From Ganoderma boninense (taxonomy: Eukaryota; Basidiomycota; Agaricomycetes; Polyporales; Polyporaceae): 64,000 nt of DNA. Positions 1,480 to 37,620 of this stretch are shown piece after piece. The position numbers were made by a program, and so were the translations under genes. The first letter of the stretch is position 1; each line of letters starts with the position of its first letter. The stretch is from the NCBI GenBank assembly GCA_002900995.3, contig CM035307.1, positions 3,286,001 through 3,350,000 on the forward strand, given 5' to 3'. Under the pieces are notes generated by a model. It was not told where the DNA came from. It did not search any database and was given only the letters and a program-made list of their open reading frames with translations.

Positions 1480-3047
1480 TTAGACCTGCATATCCCCCTC
1501 CAAATCGGCGTACAAGCCAGCCGTTATCTGTCCGAGGCTTTTCGGAAGCTCTAGGATCGCATTGACGTGCTCGCGAGGGAAGGGAATCGTCTGGAGCGAG
1601 CTCGACAGGACGGCGTGGAGAGAGCCGAAGTAGAACGCCATGTGGTTCGCGATCATGTTGCTGTATGCGTTGAGGTTTTCAGTTTGGGTCTGAAGGAGGC
1701 TGGTGCGGGTAGAGAGTGTCAACGCCTTCGCACGCTCTAGCGCGATCGCCTCCTGGCGCCACGAGCTTTGTTGCGGGTCGGACTGCCCAGGCCACTGGCC
1801 ACGAGAACCGCCAGCGGGGGCGTTTCCACTAGGGGCTGCCTGGTTGTCGTAAAGGGGAGCTGCAGCAGCGTTGGGGGCGGGATGGAACTGGGAAGCAGCG
1901 GCCGTCGATGGATGCCCAGCGTTGCCGGTCCAGATGCTCGACGCGTCCCTGACGTGCGTCCCAGCCGCAAGGGCCCCTTCTTGCGACAGATTAGGAAGGG
2001 AGTGGGTAGAACCAAGGTGCTGGGAAGTGAGTCCTGAAGTCGTATAAGGGTCCTGGGGTGGCTGAGGGAGGGAGCGGGTCGAGCCGTACTGGGAGCGGTA
2101 TATAGCCGCGGCCGCGGAGCGGACCCCGTGCTGGCCCGCGTTCCTGGGGTTGAACGAACCCGTGCCGTCCCCCACGGCAAACTCGGGAACAGGATCAGGG
2201 CTGTCCACAGCCATGGAACTGTCGTTCTCGTACTCCGGAGGAGACGTGCTGAGCTCCACGTTCCACAGTTCAGCGGAATCCCCTAGCACCCTCAGGAGCA
2301 TCTCCAGCCATTCAGCCTCTGCCGGTGAGGCATGGACTAGATTCCGCACTACAATGACAACTTCAATCGATGCCGTGAAGAGGAATGAGAGATGACTCAC
2401 TGCCTCGGGCCTTCAGCTGTGCCGGGGTAGTTTCGAAGGGAGTATCGGGCTCGGGATCCCAAGTCATTCGCCAATACTTGAACTTGGCGATCAATCTAAT
2501 GATTGCAGAGGACGTCGGTAAATGCCAAGTAGTTACGATGACACGCGAAGAGACAAGGGACGTACCGGGTATTGAGTTTTCCCAAATTCCTTGCCGCGCC
2601 CTTGATGTCCATCGGGCAGCGAAAGACAGCTATCATGATGCTTATGCACCTCGGATCCTTGAGACGTCCGGTGAGAGTTTGGAGCCGAATCGCTATCGAG
2701 AAGGGGAGGAACTCGATGAGGTAGTTATGAAACAACACCGTCTCCTCCGAAGAACCCCATCGAGGGACTTCGAGGATAGGCGGCAGACAGGTGAAGGGCG
2801 CCGCGGAGACGGTCAACTGGATGGCGGCCTGGTAAGAGAGGGCCTCTGCGACCGGGAGGGTAACCAGTGTAGCGTTGGCGGGTACGTTGGGGGGGGGGGG
2901 CGGACGGATCTGCAAGAGAGACCGAATGGGTTACCCATAAGTCTCCTGGGCAGACTTGAGGGACATACCGGACGGCGCCTCAGGCGCACCCTGAAGAGTC
3001 TGAGGGTTGCCTTGACCTGCGGGGGATTGCTGCTGGTAAGGATCCAT
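1480..3047 (-). CDS. Paralogue of the 22.8-27.2 kb gene, frameshifted at a 12-C tract
   Basis: Spliced model on the minus strand: exon 1 starts at the ATG at 3047 (first residues MDPYQQQSPAG) and ends at 2969. Exon 2 starts at 2909, and two further exons run to the stop at 1480. The last exon is Ser/Pro/Gln-rich in the middle (repeated SLPQ/SLPN-type motifs) and ends in a helical region. The segment with AELW near the start of that exon resembles the PELW region of the gene at 22759-27155, and exon 1 is almost identical to that gene's exon 1, so the two are paralogues. Function unknown. Exon 2 enters in a frame that leads to an early stop unless the 12-C homopolymer (2889-2900) is read as 11 C. 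This is therefore either a recent pseudogene, a slippery-tract allele or a sequencing error. Confidence 0.6.
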
Positions 3048-4087
3048 CGTTGAGAGGACAGGAGCTGAGGCTTGCCGGAAGCCCCCTCCCCTCGACGATA
3101 TTTAACTGCGGTCGGTCTTGGGACATTCTCGTTAGGACCTTCAACAGAGGTAAAATACTTGCTTGTGCCCTCGAGAGTCCCCGGGGTATCGCTGGCAGAG
3201 AGGCCGACTTCCTCTTCTTGACGGCAATTCGATAACGTCGCCTTGCGATGTGAGCAACGAGGTGGTTGTCCTGAAGTTCCATATTCGACCAGTTCAGCCC
3301 GAGACGGAAGAAGGGAGCAGCGACATCCTAGCGAACGGAGACCCGCGGTGAGCATCATGGGGGTCGTTCGACACGTCGAAGCTCACCTGGGTGCAGTCTC
3401 TGCCTATGAAACAATACTAGCCGGCCACCGGATGACCAGTTGGGGAGTCTCCTTGCGGCAAACTGCGCTAAGGGCATTGTCCGGCTAGCCGCAAGTTCAG
3501 ACGCGCGTCGGTAAGATGCCCAATTCATCAACCTAAGCGCCACGTTCAGACCTCTGCGGCCATGGTTTGCCGAGAGGGCCTCACACATGCAATATCACTT
3601 AATGGGACGCTCCATGAGATGGTGAATCTCCGCATGTTGCTTCTTTTGTCACTGCGAACTCGAAGGCGGACGTGGACCATCTTCGGGCGTTTGGGAAACT
3701 GTCACTGACCACCTGCTGTCACCACAAGGCTCGGCACCACGAGTCAATGTCGTCAACGTAAACGGCGCACCGTCCATTCCGGCATCATGAGCCGACGTCT
3801 TGCGGTCATGATTTGTCAAGCACTTCTAGGCACTTCTGAGACGTTCCCACCGCCTTTCGGTCGCAATAGGTTGCGGCGGACTCGGTGGGGATTGAGGGAA
3901 GGGGTCAGGCGGCCGTCTTCCCCTCGCACTGCGGCACACAGCACCCGCAATTTACGTCTACGAAGCAATGCTCTTTCCGGCGCACGCTCTCACGCAGGGC
4001 GCCGAGTGCCTTTCTCCGATCCAGATTCCAGGCGATCAGGCAGGTCTTGCGCGTCTCCAAGGCGGCTCCTGCGATCTGGGTCCAGCG
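2961..4087. repeat. Inverted duplication, copy A (promoter plus exon 1)
   Basis: About 1.13 kb that recurs in inverted orientation at 21711-22845, with only scattered substitutions and small indels. The segment contains the last exon of an upstream minus-strand gene, roughly 0.85 kb of intergenic DNA with a TTAAATAT element, and all of exon 1 of the downstream gene. Identity stops 8 nt into intron 1, just after GTATGTCC. At the other end it stops inside the intron in front of the upstream gene's last exon. Both breakpoints therefore lie in introns. Confidence 0.9.
3096..3107 (-). promoter_or_regulatory. TATA-like element upstream of the 3047 start
   Basis: TTAAATAT on the minus strand about 50-60 bp upstream of the ATG at 3047. 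The identical element precedes the paralogue start at 22759 in the duplicated copy. This is a positional inference only; no transcription start is known. Confidence 0.35.
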
Positions 4088-4202
4088 AATCTCCGTGTGA
4101 GTGGCTGTACCCTAGATCCTTGTGTATCTGACGGTCCACCAACAGTCTCTCGCCGTATCGGTCTCTTAGTAGCCAGATCTCCGGTTCATCGCGTTCGTCC
4201 AT
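3905..4202 (-). CDS. 3' exons of an unassigned gene
   Basis: On the minus strand an exon encoding a charged segment (DEPEIWLLRDRYGERL) ends at a GTACAG donor. It joins in phase to a last exon that begins after GATCGCAG and ends at the stop at 3905. The last exon encodes a basic helix followed by a short Cys-rich tail (CGCCVPQC). Only this last exon is duplicated at 21730-21893. Upstream exons probably lie at 4200-4950 (for example a frame starting MDETRTRAQ near 4930), but I could not join them without stops. Function unknown. Confidence 0.4.
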
Positions 4203-12820: not shown

Positions 12821-15800
12821 CTACATCTCAGGGTGCGTCGCTCCTCGCGTGTCCGCGTCGGTCAATCGAAGCACCGCCAGTGCATCCGCCAGAGCGTTGG
12901 CACCAGCATAACGGGGACGGGGGCGTGGACGTGCTCGCGGGAGATTCGGGGATCGCAAAGTTGGTGCAACCCTATATGCTTCCTGTCAAGGCCCGTTAAC
13001 CAAGTCATCGATCCTACGCAATTAGCCGCCTACCTTGACATTGTCGAGAAAACCTAGGAACCTCAACCAGACATCCCCTTCGCGCCGACCAGGTCGTGCC
13101 TCGATGGCCCTGACGATGGCATACAGCCATCCAAGGGTACGGGTGAACTGGAGGGGGGAGCTAGGATCCGGGATATCCGCCAGCCAGAGGGGAGCCTCTG
13201 GGTTGCCCTTCTCCCAGGAGTCCAGCCGCGCCGTATGAGTGCCGCCTGTGGGCAAAGGGGTTTCAACGTGCACAACGAACACACAGACAGGCGATGGTGC
13301 CATCGTGGTGTGATACGTTTCCTACGGAGGTAGGGTCACAGCTGCTGTTGTAGTTCTGATACATCAGGTTCTGGTTACGACTCTAAGTTGTTTTACATCA
13401 GGTTACAGCAAGCGATCTGATGTATCACGACGCCTCCTGGGCTTCCGGGACAGCCATCAATAACCTACCTAATTGGGGAGGCCTCCTCCGGAATTAATGG
13501 AACAGCCACCAGTTATCTCCCTGATTTGGAAGATCTACTTCCAAGCACAGCATTGCTGCTTCCCAAGCTTATCTAAGCCTGTGGGCCACTGTCCCGGGTG
13601 CCTGGGTGCCTCCCTCCATCAATTCCGGTATTCCCCCATCAATCCTGGGCTCCCTCCATCAATTCCGGGTTCTCCCATCATTCTACCAACCTCCTGCCCC
13701 TCCTGTCCCAATATAGCAGTCCCTCCTCCCTCCCGGAATTGTATTAGCTGTATCTCCCTCATTTCTGGGTGTATTGACTTCGTTTTTTTTGCATTATGTT
13801 CGCCTAATTAGCGCGCTTCTAATGCACCTAACACGACCATACAACGAGGGTCATAACATATACTAATGGCCCCTCTATAGTCGCTCTAGGGGGGAATGTT
13901 TGGCCCATATCTCGGCCGTTTTTGCACGCATTTGCTCGCGACAGGGCGCGTTTTGTTCGCGTGATCGACGCGCACAAAACGAGCCCTCTCGCGCCCAAAT
14001 CCGTCCACCCGTTCCTCCGGTGCATATATCCCCTCCTCCTGGGGAACAGGTATATGCACCTTGGGAACCACTGGACCGATTGGCTTCGTTCTTTTTGCAT
14101 CTGGTAGCTACTAATAAGTGTATTCTAGGCGTACAGACTGCATACAGGCGCACCCAGTTGCCACTGTATGAGGGAGGCATCAATAGTCACCTATAGTTGA
14201 CTTCTTCCCCCCATATACCCTTCAGTTCTTGGCCGTTTTTTGTGCCCCTTATACGCCCGGAAAGCCCTGTGTAAGGGCTTTCCAACGAGCCTACATACGC
14301 CCAAATCCGTCCACTGTAGCCCTCGGACCATAGACCCCTTCCCCTCACTACTCCCCTCCCCACTGTTTGGCCCATATCTTGGGCAGTTCTGGGCCAATCC
14401 ACTCGCTCTCTTTTGTCTCATATATGTGTACTATACCACAAGCCAATTCACCACTGAAAAGTACTATCAGGCATGTAGATCTATATACAGGTTGTTATCA
14501 GTAGTCACCAGTTTACCCCCCTCTGACAATTTTTCCATTTGCCTGATAAAACATGCAGTTATATGGTCGGATAGCAGCAAATTACAGCTATCCAATGCAA
14601 CAAAGTTGAGGGGAAACAGGTAAGAAGTCATTGAGATATGACTTGTGGAAGCCAAGGGGGACCCCTTGGTCTAGTAAGGCATTTCCGAGAGCAGTGTCTT
14701 ACTGCCTGTCTTAAAGTGTCTTACACCCCAGTGTACATTTGATCTATTAGCTATATCTCATCCATTTCTTGACCGATTGGGATGGTTTTGGGCTTGTTGG
14801 AAAGCGGCTGCAAAGGGCTTTCAAGTAGTGTGTATGATCTAGTCAGCTACCACCACTTACATATATGTCAGAGGGGGGTAGATCTAGGTACCACTGATAA
14901 CAGACTCTATATAGATCGTTGGAGAGGATAGTGGTATACACTGCTTGGTTACAAGCAGTGCTATTGCATGCATAGGACGCAAAAGAGAGCGAGTGGATTG
15001 GCCCAGAACTGCCCAAGATATGGGCCAAACAGTGGGGAGGGGAGTAGTGAGGGGGAAGGGGTCTATGGTCCGAGGGCTACAGTGGACGGATTTGGGCGTA
15101 TGTAGGCTCGTTGGAAAGCCCTTACACAGGGCTTTCCGGGCGTATAAGGGGCACAAAAAACGGCCAAGAACTGAAGGGTATATGGGGGGAAGAAGTCAAC
15201 TATAGGTGACTATTGATGCCTCCCTCATACAGTGGCAACTGGGTGCGCCTGTATGCAGTCTGTACGCCTAGAATACACTTATTAGTAGCTACCAGATGCA
15301 AAAAGAACGAAGCCAATCGGTCCAGTGGTTCCCAAGGTGCATATACCTGTTCCCCAGGAGGAGGGGATATATGCACCGGAGGAACGGGTGGACGGATTTG
15401 GGCGCGAGAGGGCTCGTTTTGTGCGCGTCGATCACGCGAACAAAACGCGCCCTGTCGCGAGCAAATGCGTGCAAAAACGGCCGAGATATGGGCCAAACAT
15501 TCCCCCCTAGAGCGACTATAGAGGGGCCATTAGTATATGTTATGACCCTCGTTGTATGGTCGTGTTAGGTGCATTAGAAGCGCGCTAATTAGGCGAACAT
15601 AATGCAAAAAAAACGAAGTCAATACACCCAGAAATGAGGGAGATACAGCTAATACAATTCCGGGAGGGAGGAGGGACTGCTATATTGGGACAGGAGGGGC
15701 AGGAGGTTGGTAGAATGATGGGAGAACCCGGAATTGATGGAGGGAGCCCAGGATTGATGGGGGAATACCGGAATTGATGGAGGGAGGCACCCAGGCACCC

Positions 15801-16306
15801 GGGACAGTGGCCCACAGGCTTAAATAAGCTTGGGAAGCAGCAATGCTGTGCTTGGAAGTAGATCTTCCAAATCAGGGAGATAACTGGTGGCTGTTCCATT
15901 AATTCCGGAGGAGGCCTCCCCAATTAGGTAGGTTATTGATGGCTGTCCCGGAAGCCCCAGGAGGCGTCGTGATACATCAGATCGCTTGCTGTAACCTGAT
16001 GTAAAACAACTTAGAGTCGTAACCAGAACCTGATGTATCAGAACTACAACATATGGTGAGGGTCAGGACGTGTCCAGGAATATATGGAGAACACGAGAAA
16101 TCCACCTCGATGTGCAGTTTCAAAAGGACATTGGTATTGGCACCAGGACATAGGACGCCCAGCGCCCAGCCAGTCTTCTCCTCTGCGCGAAGCGAATGCA
16201 TAAAGAACTCGGAGGGTGTCGAAGGACAGATTGGAGGCGTCTGCGCCAGGGTACTCGAGGAGCTCTGCTGCTGACGGGGAGGGCGATCGTAGGAAAACGT
16301 GGCCAT
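12821..16306 (-). CDS. Unknown protein; intron 1 carries a 2.7-kb foldback element
   Basis: Three exons on the minus strand: 16306-16106, 13321-13034 and 12982-12821. They give 216 residues with every junction in phase. Intron 2 is 51 nt. Intron 1 is 2784 nt because it contains the element at 13339-16058; without the element and one target copy it would be 57 nt, with a CTGAC 11 nt before the CTCCGTAG acceptor. Its donor GTGGAT is weak. The start MATFSYDRPP was preferred because it sits in an AGGATGGCC context and follows a TATA-like box. An in-frame ATG further upstream (16357) is possible. The sequence has an N-terminal low-complexity segment, an aliphatic strand-rich core (VLLKLHIE, PVCVFVVHVET), a helical segment and an Arg/Pro tail. 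No family recognised. Confidence 0.65.
13332..13338. repeat. Target-site duplication of foldback element 1 (left)
   Basis: AGGGTCA directly abuts the element's left end (CAGCTGC). The same heptamer follows the right end at 16059-16065. The base 5' of each copy differs, so 7 bp rather than 8. Confidence 0.75.
13938..13992. repeat. Nested hairpin 1 in element 1
   Basis: An imperfect palindrome of about 25 bp per side: GCGACAGGGCGCGTTTTGT pairs with the reverse complement of ACAAAACGAGCCCTCTCGC, and the tip contains GATC. A hairpin in the same relative place occurs in element 2 with a different sequence. Confidence 0.75.
14011..14068. repeat. Nested hairpin 2 in element 1
   Basis: GGTGCATATA pairs with TATATGCACC across a CCCCTCCTCCT-containing loop, and outer GTTCC pairs with GGAAC. 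The counterpart in element 2 has a changed stem sequence with pairing largely kept. Confidence 0.7.
14416..14979. other. Loop of foldback element 1
   Basis: A 564-bp unique centre with no open frame of note. It shares short motifs with the 563-bp loop of element 2 (for example GTGTCTTACAC), indicating common origin. Confidence 0.7.
14980..16058 (-). repeat. Element 1 right terminal inverted repeat arm
   Basis: Reverse complement of the left arm. It ends in ACTACAACATATGGTG and is followed by the second AGGGTCA at 16059-16065. Confidence 0.9.
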
Positions 16307-21489: not shown

Positions 21490-21710
21490 GAAAAATGCTT
21501 CATTGAATGACTTCCTTGCAGGAGAGAAGTGGCAGCCGAGATCAAGGAAGGTGGATGCTCCCAATCTCGCCATATCTCAGCGAAGCCGCCACGCGATGAC
21601 TTTCACAAGCTTTGGTTACCAGTAGAACTCATCTGCAGAAGGCCGAGAAACGCTAGATTCCGAGAGCAAAGCCGCGCTCTTCAGGCTTGTCAATGTTGCC
21701 ACCGAAGGTG

Positions 21711-22845
21711 CGCTGGACCCAGATCGCAGGAGCCGCCTTGGAGACGCGCAAGACCTGCCTGATCGCCTGGAATCTGGATCGGAGAAAGGCACTCGGCGCC
21801 CTGCGTGAGAGCGTGCGCCGGAAAGAGCATTGCTTCGTAGACGTAAATTGCGGGTGCTGTGTGCCGCAGTGCGAGGGGAAGACGGCCGCCTGACCCCTTC
21901 CCTCAATCCCCACCGAGTCCGCCGCAACCTATTGCGACCGAAAGGCGGTGGGAACGTCTCAGAAGTGCCTAGAAGTGCTTGACAAATCATGACCGCAAGA
22001 CGTCGGCTCATGATGCCCGAATGGACGGTGCGCGCCGTTTACGTTGACGACATTGACTCGTGTGCCGAGCCTTGTGGTGACAGCAGGTGGTCAGTGACAG
22101 TTTTTCCCAAACGCCCGAAGATGGTCCACGTCCGCCTTCGAGTTCGCAGTGACAAAAGAGAGCAACACGCGGAGATTCACCATCTCATGGAGCCGTCCAT
22201 TTAAGTGATATTGCATGTGTGAGCGCTCTCGGCAAACCATGGCCGCAGAGGTCTGAACGTGGCGCTTAGGTTGAAATGAATTGGGCATCTTACGACGCGC
22301 GTCTGAACTTGCGGCGCTAGCCGGACAATGCCCTTAGCGCAGTTTGCCGCAAGGAGACTCCCCAACTGGTCATCCGGTGGCCGGCTAGTATTGTTTCATA
22401 GGCAGAGACTGCACCCAGGTGAGCTTCGACGTGTCGAACGACCCCCATGATGCTCACCGCGGGTCTCCGGTTCGCTAGGATGTCGCTGCTCCCTTCTCCG
22501 TCTCGGGCTGAACTGGTCGAATATGGAACTTTCAGGACAACCACCTCGTTGCTCACATCGCAAGGCGACGTTATCGAATTGCCGTCAAGAAGAGGAAGTC
22601 GGCCTCTCTGCCAGCGATACCCCGGGGACTCTCGAGGGCACAAGCAAGTATTTTACCTCTGTTGAAGGTCCTAACGAGAATGTCCCAAGACCGACCGCAG
22701 TTAAATATCGTCGAGGGGAGGGGGCTTCCGGCAAGCCTCAGCTCCTGTCCTCTCAACGATGGATCCTTACCAGCAGCAATCCCCCGCAGGTCAAGGCAAC
22801 CCTCAGACTCTTCAGGGTGCGCCTGAGGCGCCGTCCGGTATGTCC
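21711..22845. repeat. Inverted duplication, copy A' (promoter plus exon 1)
   Basis: Inverted partner of 2961-4087. It supplies the upstream region, 5' UTR and exon 1 of the 22759-27155 gene and carries a stranded last exon of another gene at 21730-21893. Confidence 0.9.
21730..21893 (+). pseudogene. Orphan last exon duplicated from the 3905-4202 gene
   Basis: Encodes the same basic helix and Cys-rich tail (CVPQCEGKTAA then stop) as the last exon ending at 3905. The preceding exons are absent; the sequence to its left (the integrase gene region) is unrelated. The 3' splice site GATCGCAG is kept, showing that the breakpoint fell in the intron. Confidence 0.6.
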
Positions 22846-25800
22846 ACAGTGCTGCATCGGAGACTCAACTTCATGGCGTGCTGTGCACAGCCCGTCCCCA
22901 CTATACCGGCAGCGACGGTACTTGGCCCACTTCGGCCTCTGCGGATTCCTCCCGACATAGCGCTCCGAAATCCGTTGCCGATCGGGCATGCTCGAAGCCT
23001 CCCGGGTCCCATTCCAACGCTCCGCTCGCCATACAATTCTCCGCAAGATTCCCGCAACTTGCGGCAAAATTCGCTGCCCATTGCCGCACGCTGACTGCCA
23101 TGGAGAAACGCCTAGTTTTCCACTCCATGGATTCGGAGATGGTTCAAGAAGTCGCTATCGCTGTCTTCTCGGAAGATATTGACAAGGGGCTAGCGTACGA
23201 AGATGTCTTCAAGCAGTTCGCCGCCTTCCAAACACAGTACGTCGCTCCGGTTAGGCCGTTTCTGCCCTCACCCACCCATCGATCTCATATATCGGCCTCT
23301 AGCTTCATCCAGGAGTTCTCGACATGGCATCTCTCCTGCGTCAGTGTCGTCACCGAGGGCTTGTCGCCGCAGCAAGCCATTAAGCGACGTTGTGACGCAG
23401 CCCGTAAGTTGTCATGCCCTTTTCATCCCAGCACCTACAGCAGCTGTGGTAAGGATAATGTATTATTTACCGGAGATAGCCTGGCACTGCAATGCAATAT
23501 AAACCGACTCTGCTTGTAATGTAATACGAAGCCCCGGGATAATGCCCGGAGTTTCCTAATACAGTAGGCAGCCTCCGGAGGGCCTGTTATCAGTGCCCGG
23601 GCTGGCGCTTTTTTGCTTATCAGCTTAGATAACACTCTCCGGGCTTATCTGCCATCACTCCGGGGCTTCCCCCATCAATACTGACCTCCCATCAGCCACC
23701 CGAGCCCCTCCCGCCCCGCCACTGCCCAATATGGAAAGTGCTCGGGTGCCTGCACCTGGGCACTTTGCCCTTGCCATATCTCTGTCAAATCTTGACCGTT
23801 TCCCATGATCTTAGGTGCGTTTTAATCGCATTTTTAATGCGCTTCTAACGCGTCTATTGCGCCATACTAATAGTGTCTACTAACATGTGTATATAGGTAT
23901 CTATGGTCGCCCTAGGGGGCAGTAAATTGGCCATAGCTCGGGCGTTTTTGAACGGAACAGGACGATCTTGGGCGCGTTCTGTTCGCGTTGACAACGCGCA
24001 CAGAACGAGCCCAAGATCGTCTGATTCCGTCCAGCCGTTCCTCCGGTACACATACCCCCTCCTCCTCAGGGACAGGGTATATGTATCTCAGGAACGGATG
24101 CACCGTTTGGGACGATCTTTGGTGCGTCTGGTAGGTGTACAGTAGTACTAATTGGAAATATAATTTGTTTGAACAGATATAACCTAATAAATATACTACA
24201 GGGCGATCAATAATCAGCCACAGCACCATTCCACCCTCCATAACTCAGCAACCGCTCGACCGAAATTTTTGCCCGTCATACCACTGGAATGGGGCGATCA
24301 GCAGCTTTCAAACGAGCCCAAGATCGTCCCAGTCCGACCACTAGAGCCTCCGGAATGCCCATCCCCTCCTCCTGCCCCCACCCTGGCACTGTTTGGGCCA
24401 TATCTCTGGCAGTTCTTCGCCAAATCACGTCGTTTTTTTGTCTTACACTCCGAGATACAATGGCTACCTTGTCGCAAAATTCGACTGTCCTATTCACTCT
24501 GAATCCCATGTGACAGTGGTATCAGCAATTACAGTTGTACCCCCTCTCGACGTTTTTCTGTCTCTGTGGTTATTGTAATCTATGTGTGATTCAATAGCCA
24601 TATACACTAGCTATCAAATGAAAAAAAGTTTGAAGGAAACGGACAAAAACTGGCAGAGATATGAATTTATGATTTCTGAGTGTCTTACTGGAGGACTGCT
24701 TGGCTTCCGAATAGGCTGTAAGACGTGTCTTACACAGCTTATCTAGGCTCACTCGGAATAAATACCATGTATCCTAGGCATTTCTCAACCGTTTTTTGTG
24801 ATCTTTGGTGCGTTTTGAAGCTGGCATTTAGTAGCATTCAGTCCACACCACAATCAGAAGGTATTCATTCACAACAAAGAGTGACTCAGGAGACTATTTG
24901 CAGCACAGAGAAGCATGTAGCAATTGCAATTGAAAGTGGATGAGTGTAGTATTTCATGTTTATATACAGGCCAGTAAAACAAATATAATACAACAAGAAC
25001 GACGTGATTTGGCGAAGAACTGCCAGAGATATGGCCCAAACAGTGCCAGGGTGGGGGCAGGAGGAGGGGATGGGCATTCCGGAGGCTCTAGTGGTCGGAC
25101 TGGGACGATCTTGGGCTCGTTTGAAAGCTGCTGATCGCCCCATTCCAGTGGTATGACGGGCAAAAATTTCGGTCGAGCGGTTGCTGAGTTATGGAGGGTG
25201 GAATGGTGCTGTGGCTGATTATTGATCGCCCTGTAGTATATTTATTAGGTTATATCTGTTCAAACAAATTATATTTCCAATTAGTACTACTGTACACCTA
25301 CCAGACGCACCAAAGATCGTCCCAAACGGTGCATCCGTTCCTGAGATACATATACCCTGTCCCTGAGGAGGAGGGGGTATGTGTACCGGAGGAACGGCTG
25401 GACGGAATCAGACGATCTTGGGCTCGTTCTGTGCGCGTTGTCAACGCGAACAGAACGCGCCCAAGATCGTCCTGTTCCGTTCAAAAACGCCCGAGCTATG
25501 GCCAATTTACTGCCCCCTAGGGCGACCATAGATACCTATATACACATGTTAGTAGACACTATTAGTATGGCGCAATAGACGCGTTAGAAGCGCATTAAAA
25601 ATGCGATTAAAACGCACCTAAGATCATGGGAAACGGTCAAGATTTGACAGAGATATGGCAAGGGCAAAGTGCCCAGGTGCAGGCACCCGAGCACTTTCCA
25701 TATTGGGCAGTGGCGGGGGCGGGAGGGGCTCGGGTGGCTGATGGGAGGTCAGTATTGATGGGGGAAGCCCCGGAGTGATGGCAGATAAGCCCGGAGAGTG

Positions 25801-27155
25801 TTATCTAAGCTGATAAGCAAAAAAGCGCCAGCCCGGGCACTGATAACAGGCCCTCCGGAGGCTGCCTACTGTATTAGGAAACTCCGGGCATTATCCCGGG
25901 GCTTCGTATTACATTACAAGCAGAGTCGGTTTATATTGCATTGCAGTGCCAGGCTATCTCCGGTAAATAATACATTATCCTTACCACAGCTTGTGGCACC
26001 TACTGACATCGGCGTGCAGGCGCTGCTGCGCAGCAAGGTGCCGTAACTTGGACGTCGGTACTTGATGTATTTGGCGACACCCCCGAACTATGGGGGGTGC
26101 AGGTCCCCTTCCCGTCGGAAGCCCACAGGAAGGGTAAGGGTCGTGGCAGGTCCTCCGCGGATTCGTTTCGACCCGAGCCCTCTGGGAACATGTGGTCTGC
26201 CGCCTCGTCGCCCGCTCCTAGCGCCAATACATCGAAATTGCCTCCAGCCAAGCTCGAGGTCCAGCCCTCAGTGGGCTACTCCATCAACGCTGGTACGGAC
26301 TTCGAGGATGTCGGCCCATATACCTCTACCAGCCGCCAGTCGGTCACTGATGCTATTCCCGATCATGGGAGTCCGGGCTCCTACGACTTCGTTCCCTATC
26401 TTGACTTCCAAACCGCCGCCACAGTTATGTCTCCCGACAAAGTCTACGAATCTGGCACCCCGTCGTCCACTCACTATGTCCCTCCCACTGTGGCCATCCC
26501 AGATCCTGGGGCTGCTACCACAACGCCTGGTCTCCCTCAGCCGAGCGAGACTGGGCGGCGCATCGCTCCGTCCAAGGGCGTCTCCAAGGGTGTCAACTAT
26601 TCCACTGATGCCAACGACTTCGTCTCCGTCCTTCTCAACCACCCTGACGCGTTCGCATTCCTTGAAGCATTCGGCCATTCATCGCTTCTTCCGGGCTTTG
26701 AGCTCTCCGAGCTGCTTCGCGATGTGCTGCGCTTCGATGAGCCCCCCTCCCTCCCATCTCGCGCGGGCTCCAATACGCACATCGACAACGTTGCGAGCCG
26801 CTCTGGTGGCGATCCTGCCCTGTCGTTTCGGCCCTTGGGTGAAAACTCTACCCGGGATCCGCTGACGATAGCAATCCACGAGAAGCTCATTCACCTTCAT
26901 GAGTTCAAGGAGGTCCACAGGGTCCACGTCGAGACGCTTTGGGGCATCGTGCGCCACATGAAGCAGTGGCATACATCGTGCTTGGAGATCCAGTACCTGC
27001 ATGAGAGACGCGGGACCTTCCTCTCCGAGGAGCTTTTTCAATTGCAGCGCGATCTCATGATCATCATCGACGGTTTCACCGCCCTCGTTTTTCAGTTGCT
27101 GGTACAGCAGGAGCGCTTCCGGCCTCCGGAGCTGCTGCTGCTGCATCCTTATTAG
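22759..27155 (+). CDS. Unknown 553-aa protein; intron 3 carries a 2.6-kb foldback element
   Basis: Four exons: 22759-22837, 22891-23236, 23303-23403 and 26020-27155, total 1662 nt with all phases closing. Introns 1 and 2 are 53 and 66 nt. Intron 3 is 2616 nt because it contains the element at 23438-25995; the empty intron would be 51 nt, with GTAAGT donor, CTACTGAC branch point and GTGCAG acceptor. The N-terminus is Gln/Pro/Ser-rich. Residues about 60-200 are helical and acidic (LAIQFSARFPQLAAKF; SEDIDKGLAYEDVFKQFA), then a PELW motif, a long disordered middle, and a helical C-terminus rich in His and Glu (EKLIHLHEFKEVHRV) ending in PELLLLHPY. It is a diverged paralogue of the 1480-3047 gene. 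No domain recognised. Confidence 0.75.
23431..23437. repeat. Target-site duplication of foldback element 2 (left)
   Basis: GCACCTA before the element and again at 25996-26002 after it (8 bp, GCACCTAC, if the element's first C is counted). It lies directly 5' of the CTGAC branch point in the empty intron. Confidence 0.8.
23961..24021. repeat. Nested hairpin 1 in element 2
   Basis: GACGATCTTGGGCGCGTTCT pairs with AGAACGAGCCCAAGATCGTC with a single mismatch; the tip is CGCGTTGACAACGCG. Same place and partly shared core (CGTT..TGTTCGCGT) as the hairpin at 13938-13992. Confidence 0.8.
24035..24097. repeat. Nested hairpin 2 in element 2
   Basis: CCGTTCCT pairs with AGGAACGG outside; GGTACACATACCC pairs with GGGTATATGTATC inside, using G:U pairs in the RNA. 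The loop has CCTCCTCCT as in element 1. Confidence 0.7.
24435..24997. other. Loop of foldback element 2
   Basis: 563 bp, AT-richer than the arms, no coding potential. Contains GTGTCTTACAC as in the loop of element 1. Confidence 0.7.
24998..25995 (-). repeat. Element 2 right terminal inverted repeat arm
   Basis: Reverse complement of the left arm, followed by GCACCTA at 25996-26002, then the CTGAC branch point and the 3' splice site of intron 3 at 26019. Confidence 0.9.
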
Positions 27156-36672: not shown

Positions 36673-36838
36673 GCGCCGTCCGGTATGTCCACAGTGCTGC
36701 ATCGGAGACTCAACCTCATGGCGTGCTGTGCACAGCCCGTCCCCACTATACCGGCAGCGATGGTACTTGGCCTTACTTGGCCCACTTCGGCCTCTGCGGA
36801 TTCCTCCCGGCATAGCGCTCCGAAATCCGTTGCCGATC
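36673..36838 (+). repeat. Fragment duplicated from intron 1/exon 2 of the 22759 gene
   Basis: Matches 22828-22983 with a few substitutions and an 11-bp tandem insertion (CTTACTTGGCC). It begins 10 bp before the exon 1 donor, contains all of intron 1, and stops inside exon 2. No reading frame is kept. Confidence 0.85.
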
Positions 36839-36844
36839 AGGGGC

Positions 36845-37385: not shown

Positions 37386-37620
37386 CCCCTCCCTCCCATC
37401 TCGCGCGGGCTCCAATACGCACATCAACAACGTTGCGAGCCGCTCTGGTGGCGATCCTGCCCTGTCGTTTCGGCCCTTGGGTGAAAACTCTACCCGGGAT
37501 CCGCTGACGATAGCAATCCACGAGAAGCTCATTCACCTTCATGAGTTCAAGGAGGTCCACAGGGTCCGCGTCGAGACGCTGTAGGGCATTGTGCGCGGCA
37601 TGGAGCAGTGGCACGCACGC
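37386..37620 (+). repeat. Fragment duplicated from exon 4 of the 22759 gene
   Basis: About 230 bp matching 26744-26975, same orientation, with few substitutions; one makes a stop (GAGACGCTGTAG versus GAGACGCTTTGG). Directly followed by a copy of the 29289-29560 repeat. Confidence 0.85.

Follow-up and report, generated by a model that had tools for sequence, protein, structure and literature searches.

Foldback elements consist almost entirely of their inverted arms and carry no transposase gene. Closest to them in structure are Galileo and Foldback of Drosophila, which in the excerpts of PMC2775673 combine long inverted arms with a short middle, and Galileo also makes 7-bp target duplications. 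Duplications of the same length, together with CA..TG ends, are described for the Kyakuja families of Laccaria, which in PMC12730594 (two families) are without TIRs and encode a transposase and TET/JBP. Zisupton, also of the KDZ group and with a KDZ transposase, differs from the elements described here in its 8-bp duplication and other ends. Another class of relevance are the introners, non-autonomous DNA transposons that act as or lie in introns and that, in the portion of PMC9860276 we could use, create the intron. In the literature returned by our searches, as far as its accessible parts go, no KDZ foldback element was recognised.

The window analysed here, a stretch of 64,000 nt from Ganoderma boninense, holds two foldback elements, one from each of two families whose arms have internal blocks in common at 75-81% identity (Table 1). 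Element 2 had been described as a foldback relative of element 1, and this observation proved right to the base. Its arms, of about 1 kb each, are complementary over 276 nt at 100% and 733 nt at 99%, and the 557-nt loop is its only non-arm part, so that it appears to carry no transposase gene. The left end reads CAGC followed by AGCTGTGGTAAGG, while the right end, read inwards, is CACA followed by the same AGCTGTGGTAAGG.

Table 1. Positions in the window of the two foldback elements, the parts of element 2 and its host gene
Feature	Position	Strand	Details
Host gene of element 2	22759..27155	+	exons 22759-22837, 22891-23236, 23303-23403, 26020-27155; 553 residues
Host intron 3	23404..26019	+	2616 nt; 5' splice site at 23404; branch-point-like CTGAC 26003-26007; CAG 26017-26019
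Foldback element 2 (family 2)	23438..25995		2558 nt
Element 2, left arm	23438..24437		0 differences to right arm in 951 compared columns behind the ends, one indel
Element 2, loop	24438..24994		557 nt
Element 2, right arm	24995..25995		about 1 kb
Target duplication GCACCTA, left copy	23431..23437		7 bp
Target duplication GCACCTA, right copy	25996..26002		7 bp
Foldback element 1 (family 1)	13339..16058		2720 nt; duplication AGGGTCA at 13332-13338 and 16059-16065

The host gene of element 2 is fungus-like, and its four exons close in phase, as had been proposed, and are free of internal stops; none of the 7995 database candidates scored against its protein reached E <= 0.001. When the element and one copy of the duplication are taken out, intron 3 shrinks to the 51 nt of the original prediction (GTAAGT...CTGAC...GTGCAG). 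The same 51-nt intron is called by the unsupervised gene finder in the emptied sequence, and the site has a higher candidate-intron score than its surroundings (share of flanking positions that score as high: 0.000). A search of the genome with the last exon returned nine further matches, the best of which is 47% identical over 279 residues (C10:970300-971205). At this paralogous locus, a stretch of 1,051 nt that lies upstream of the match and runs into it (L073) has an intron of 49 nt in which TACTGAC and CATGCAG occur, and the intron position is equal in the two proteins (LLEAAR / GELPNIGEVDWSPVLDVFGDVPELWG against CDAAR / AAAQQGAVTWTSVLDVFGDTPELWG). Therefore, the host intron is older than element 2.

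The intron that houses element 1 belongs to a gene on the minus strand and has its 3' splice site at 13322-13324. Two-exon matches to paralogues of that gene in C16, C10, C1 and C2 flank short, element-free intervals at the same position, which break the reading frame (four loci, L074-L077); judged by these paralogous sequences, element 1 is also an insertion into an ancestral intron. Its own donor is degenerate (GTGGAT or GTGTTC) and weaker than the paralogue donors. Thus the emptied sequence and the paralogue loci agree with the earlier view that both elements lie in short introns that already existed, at a place close to the branch point. The two host genes form a duplicated pair, the arrangement of the window recurring at two other places, where their relatives lie about 8 kb apart (C10:962467 and 970300; C16:64063 and 71619). 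Within the window, an inverted duplication of three blocks (315, 154 and 331 nt; 99-100%) at 2961-4095 and 21703-22845, about 19 kb apart, takes in the first 87 nt of the coding part of the element 2 host gene, and fragments 92-96% identical to this gene, one with a stop, are found at 36673-36842 and 37386-37613.

An older intron is what sets this locus apart from introners, in which the insertion creates the intron: here the paralogues carry an element-free intron. One could still argue that family 2 is introner-like and brings its own splice sites, G/GTAAGG and CCTTACCACAG/, so that 11 + 6 nt and the 7-bp duplication, 24 nt together, would be left in frame. These signals are indeed found in the ends of element 2 (window 23438-23454 and 25985-25995) and in the 49 genome ends of a pattern scan (19-base end pattern, at most 2 mismatches; 0 places when read backwards). 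The 17 retained nt are stop-free in any frame and in both orientations, with the reservation that a stop could arise where their final TG meets an A, and an Aureococcus introner is described as leaving 12 nt in a like manner (excerpt of PMC9860276). However, the donor stands at the 19th percentile of predicted introns and the acceptor with its branch point at the 11th, the ends of family 1 are without the signal, and both window copies lie in older introns. We consider the introner-like reading very unlikely.

The position of both window elements had led to the suggestion that the family targets introns, or else that a strong survival bias is at work. This notion can be measured on relatives in the same genome (55.6 Mb in 74 contigs). 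Of the candidates, 40 of 67 for family 2 and 40 of 66 for family 1 were scored, and hence copy numbers are lower bounds. Among the 32 reconstructed sites the 7-bp duplication is exact in 28, has one mismatch in the contig-8 copy and is missing in three. The site counts rest on 26 sites beyond the window pair (duplication exact in 25, one mismatch in one), after exclusion of L047b, C47 and C10b (no matching duplication), L034 (same site as L033, in a duplicated locus), L032, L044, L050 and C44 (a single usable end) and C45 (left end not recognised). Also left out were C41, C1:3361499, C1:715488, C2:211254, C10:3573109, C12:2930275 and 14 one-ended matches of 70-76% identity. These fourteen (C8:687890, C8:3570137, C1:634788 and 11 others) match the family-1 end, and in sequence they look as though they are perhaps a third family with a different other end. 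The unsupervised gene finder was trained on 175,542 bases (the emptied loci and the window) and predicted 145 introns with a median of 57 nt; it makes no call for the intron of element 1 and declares L036 non-genic despite its 423-codon open frame.

Exons take 15 of the 26 other sites by this gene finder; a further 9 are not in any gene model, and the remaining 2 are in intron calls, both weak. Of the flanking bases, 48% are exon and 4.9% intron. Neither the intronic share (P for at least 2/26 = 0.366) nor the exonic one (P for at least 15/26 = 0.214) departs from this background, and target choice looks close to random. Most of the testable relatives are thus found in exons, in other transposons or where there are no genes, which is the distribution that the original prediction had itself set against targeting, and element 2 therefore seems not to aim at introns. 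In this way an observation of two out of two in introns becomes a measured null.

Intron targeting could operate, for example, via a branch-point-like sequence or via the chromatin or RNA:DNA structure of introns, and some data do point in this direction. Element 2 was inserted directly 5' of CTGAC, just as had been stated, and a CTGAC also overlaps the duplication of element 1, which reads TGACCCT on the gene strand; each insertion would, however, come to lie 7 nt or less from a branch motif of 5 nt with a chance of about 0.35 (n = 2; intron lengths 51 and about 57 nt). In one relative, C10a, no candidate intron of the flanks scores better than the one at the insertion (52 nt, score 0.5), and the duplication, ACACCTA, is similar, but a supporting coding frame is absent. 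When the two window elements are added to the two weak calls, 4/28 sites are intronic (P = 0.046), a count that includes the sites that raised the question. The candidate score of L045 is matched by 27% of flank positions and that of L047a by 11%. Over all 28 sites, the candidate-intron scores, which do not depend on annotation, are not raised: scores of at least 0 are reached at 3 (1.80 expected), of at least -2 at 8 (7.33 expected) and of at least 2 at one (0.22 expected), which is element 2; a branch-like CTRAY lies within 10 nt of 5 sites against 3.1 expected. C12a, like C10a, is in the best candidate intron of its own 1.3-kb flanks and is called exonic. No motif that holds is common to the duplications (per-position p >= 0.11), and the best pattern, TG-N11-CA (48/112), was chosen after looking. 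Taken with the 15 exonic relatives, this makes intron targeting extremely improbable.

Survival bias would mean that insertion is random, that exon copies in needed genes are lost and that intron copies are tolerated as the hairpin folds away. Both window copies do lie in introns of genes with open frames, and many exon insertions are in dispensable genes: a Pfam scan of 12 of the 17 hit gene models (ten whole and two as unjoined pieces; L035, L046, L047a, C12a and C11a were left out) found transposon domains in 7 (L031, L037, L040, L045, L048, C51, auto7), the insertion in L045 being outside these domains. On the other hand, exon insertions are not depleted overall (15/26 against 48% of flank bases), one is in a fungal transcription-factor gene (C20), and L036 is in its open frame of 423 codons. 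The copies also look young, so there was little time for selection. Survival bias is thus possible, although we find it doubtful as the explanation.

The intron that carries element 2 is presumably still spliced. The element was inserted 24 nt before the exon, and the host intron outside it amounts to 34 + 24 = 58 nt, which is near the median intron length. One reason could perhaps be pairing of the arms in the transcript, with just these 58 nt left unpaired; the paired arms would bring the splice sites to about their normal distance. A gene whose 51-nt intron has grown to 2.6 kb through a perfect hairpin lends itself to testing if a short-intron spliceosome copes by way of arm pairing.

What remains after the targeting null is a class of foldback elements with a link to KDZ ends. 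Both families have the CA..TG termini of Kyakuja, and an element of 13.5 kb on contig 7 (C7:1297170 to about 1310724) has family-1 termini at both ends, the left one 89-90% identical over about 100 nt, and the exact 7-bp duplication GAGAAGC. Inside it lies a KDZ domain (C7:1299212-1299997, E 2.7e-31). The match has two stops, which may be introns or damage, and the KDZ gene could be nested, as the interior was read up to 1299300 and from 1310660 onwards. The strand of this match also has an open frame of 500 codons, with its stop at 480 nt from the left end; we take this frame to be the C-terminal part of the transposase. A source of the enzyme is plausible because the genome has at least 150 scored KDZ matches (152 in the count); such an abundance, together with the short introns, also points to a basidiomycete. 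For family 2, no transposase-bearing element with its ends was found among the scored copies, and a Kyakuja-like transposase would move it too if the structure and the partial arm similarity that link it to family 1 are a guide. A contig-8 stretch with KDZ domains between family-2 ends (C8:2234204-2247913; 13,710 nt) was tried as its autonomous parent and rejected, as the arm of element 2 continues across two insertions. This nest (L071, L072, L030) is a family-2 foldback copy holding two other elements, a Plavaka-like one of 1.78 kb with CATCAG..CAGATG ends and a KDZ element of 9.5 kb with 760-bp TIRs, CACCTGATCC ends and the 8-bp duplication GCCCATTT; in the length of its duplication the latter is like Zisupton.

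As a whole, the data are in our opinion probably best read as non-autonomous foldback DNA transposons that depend on a Kyakuja-like (KDZ) transposase acting in trans, with little site choice. A KDZ transposase of the Kyakuja type, encoded elsewhere in the genome, would bind the two slightly different ends (CAGC.. and CACA..), excise the element and insert it at a 7-bp staggered cut with little preference for the site, and one copy would have landed by chance in an existing 51-nt intron. We call the elements only Kyakuja-like, since the copies here are transposase-free hairpins with TIRs of about 1 kb, in contrast to the TIR-less described families. One could argue that another superfamily with 7-bp duplications is responsible, hAT7 (available part of PMC12730594) or one like P/Galileo, Galileo itself being foldback-like (excerpts of PMC2775673). 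However, the contig-7 element contains a KDZ domain, and the Galileo duplication consensus GTAGTAC, as given in those excerpts, is absent from the 28 sites. Thus a different superfamily is unlikely.

The comparison of arms covered 17 family-2 copies at 16 independent sites. In 14 of the 17, a copy's own arms are closer to each other than to those of any other copy, typically with 0-4 differences in about 950 positions; L041 is nearly tied, and the exceptions L033, L043 and L049 have 41, 15 and 61 differences. The nearest relative of element 2, whose own arms are identical over the compared columns, is L045 at 1.6%. Contrastingly, one end is CAGC and the other CACA in all 17 copies, so that terminal bases 3-4 differ. 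It follows that the two arms of a copy change in concert and its ends are kept distinct, and the copy set allows arm homogenisation to be studied against a fixed end asymmetry. The arms may be kept alike by gene conversion, or transposition itself may reset them. A bolder scheme, to which we give little credence, is that the arms are born identical by such a reset or made so by later hairpin repair, that bases 3-4 are kept different for left/right recognition by the transposase, and that the splice signals in the ends remove exonic copies and leave eight in-frame codons, which would hide the family from selection in introns and exons alike. L033 and L034, about 9 kb apart on contig 2, represent the same insertion with the same flanks; the element was therefore copied with its surroundings, and the arms of L033 have diverged (41/926).
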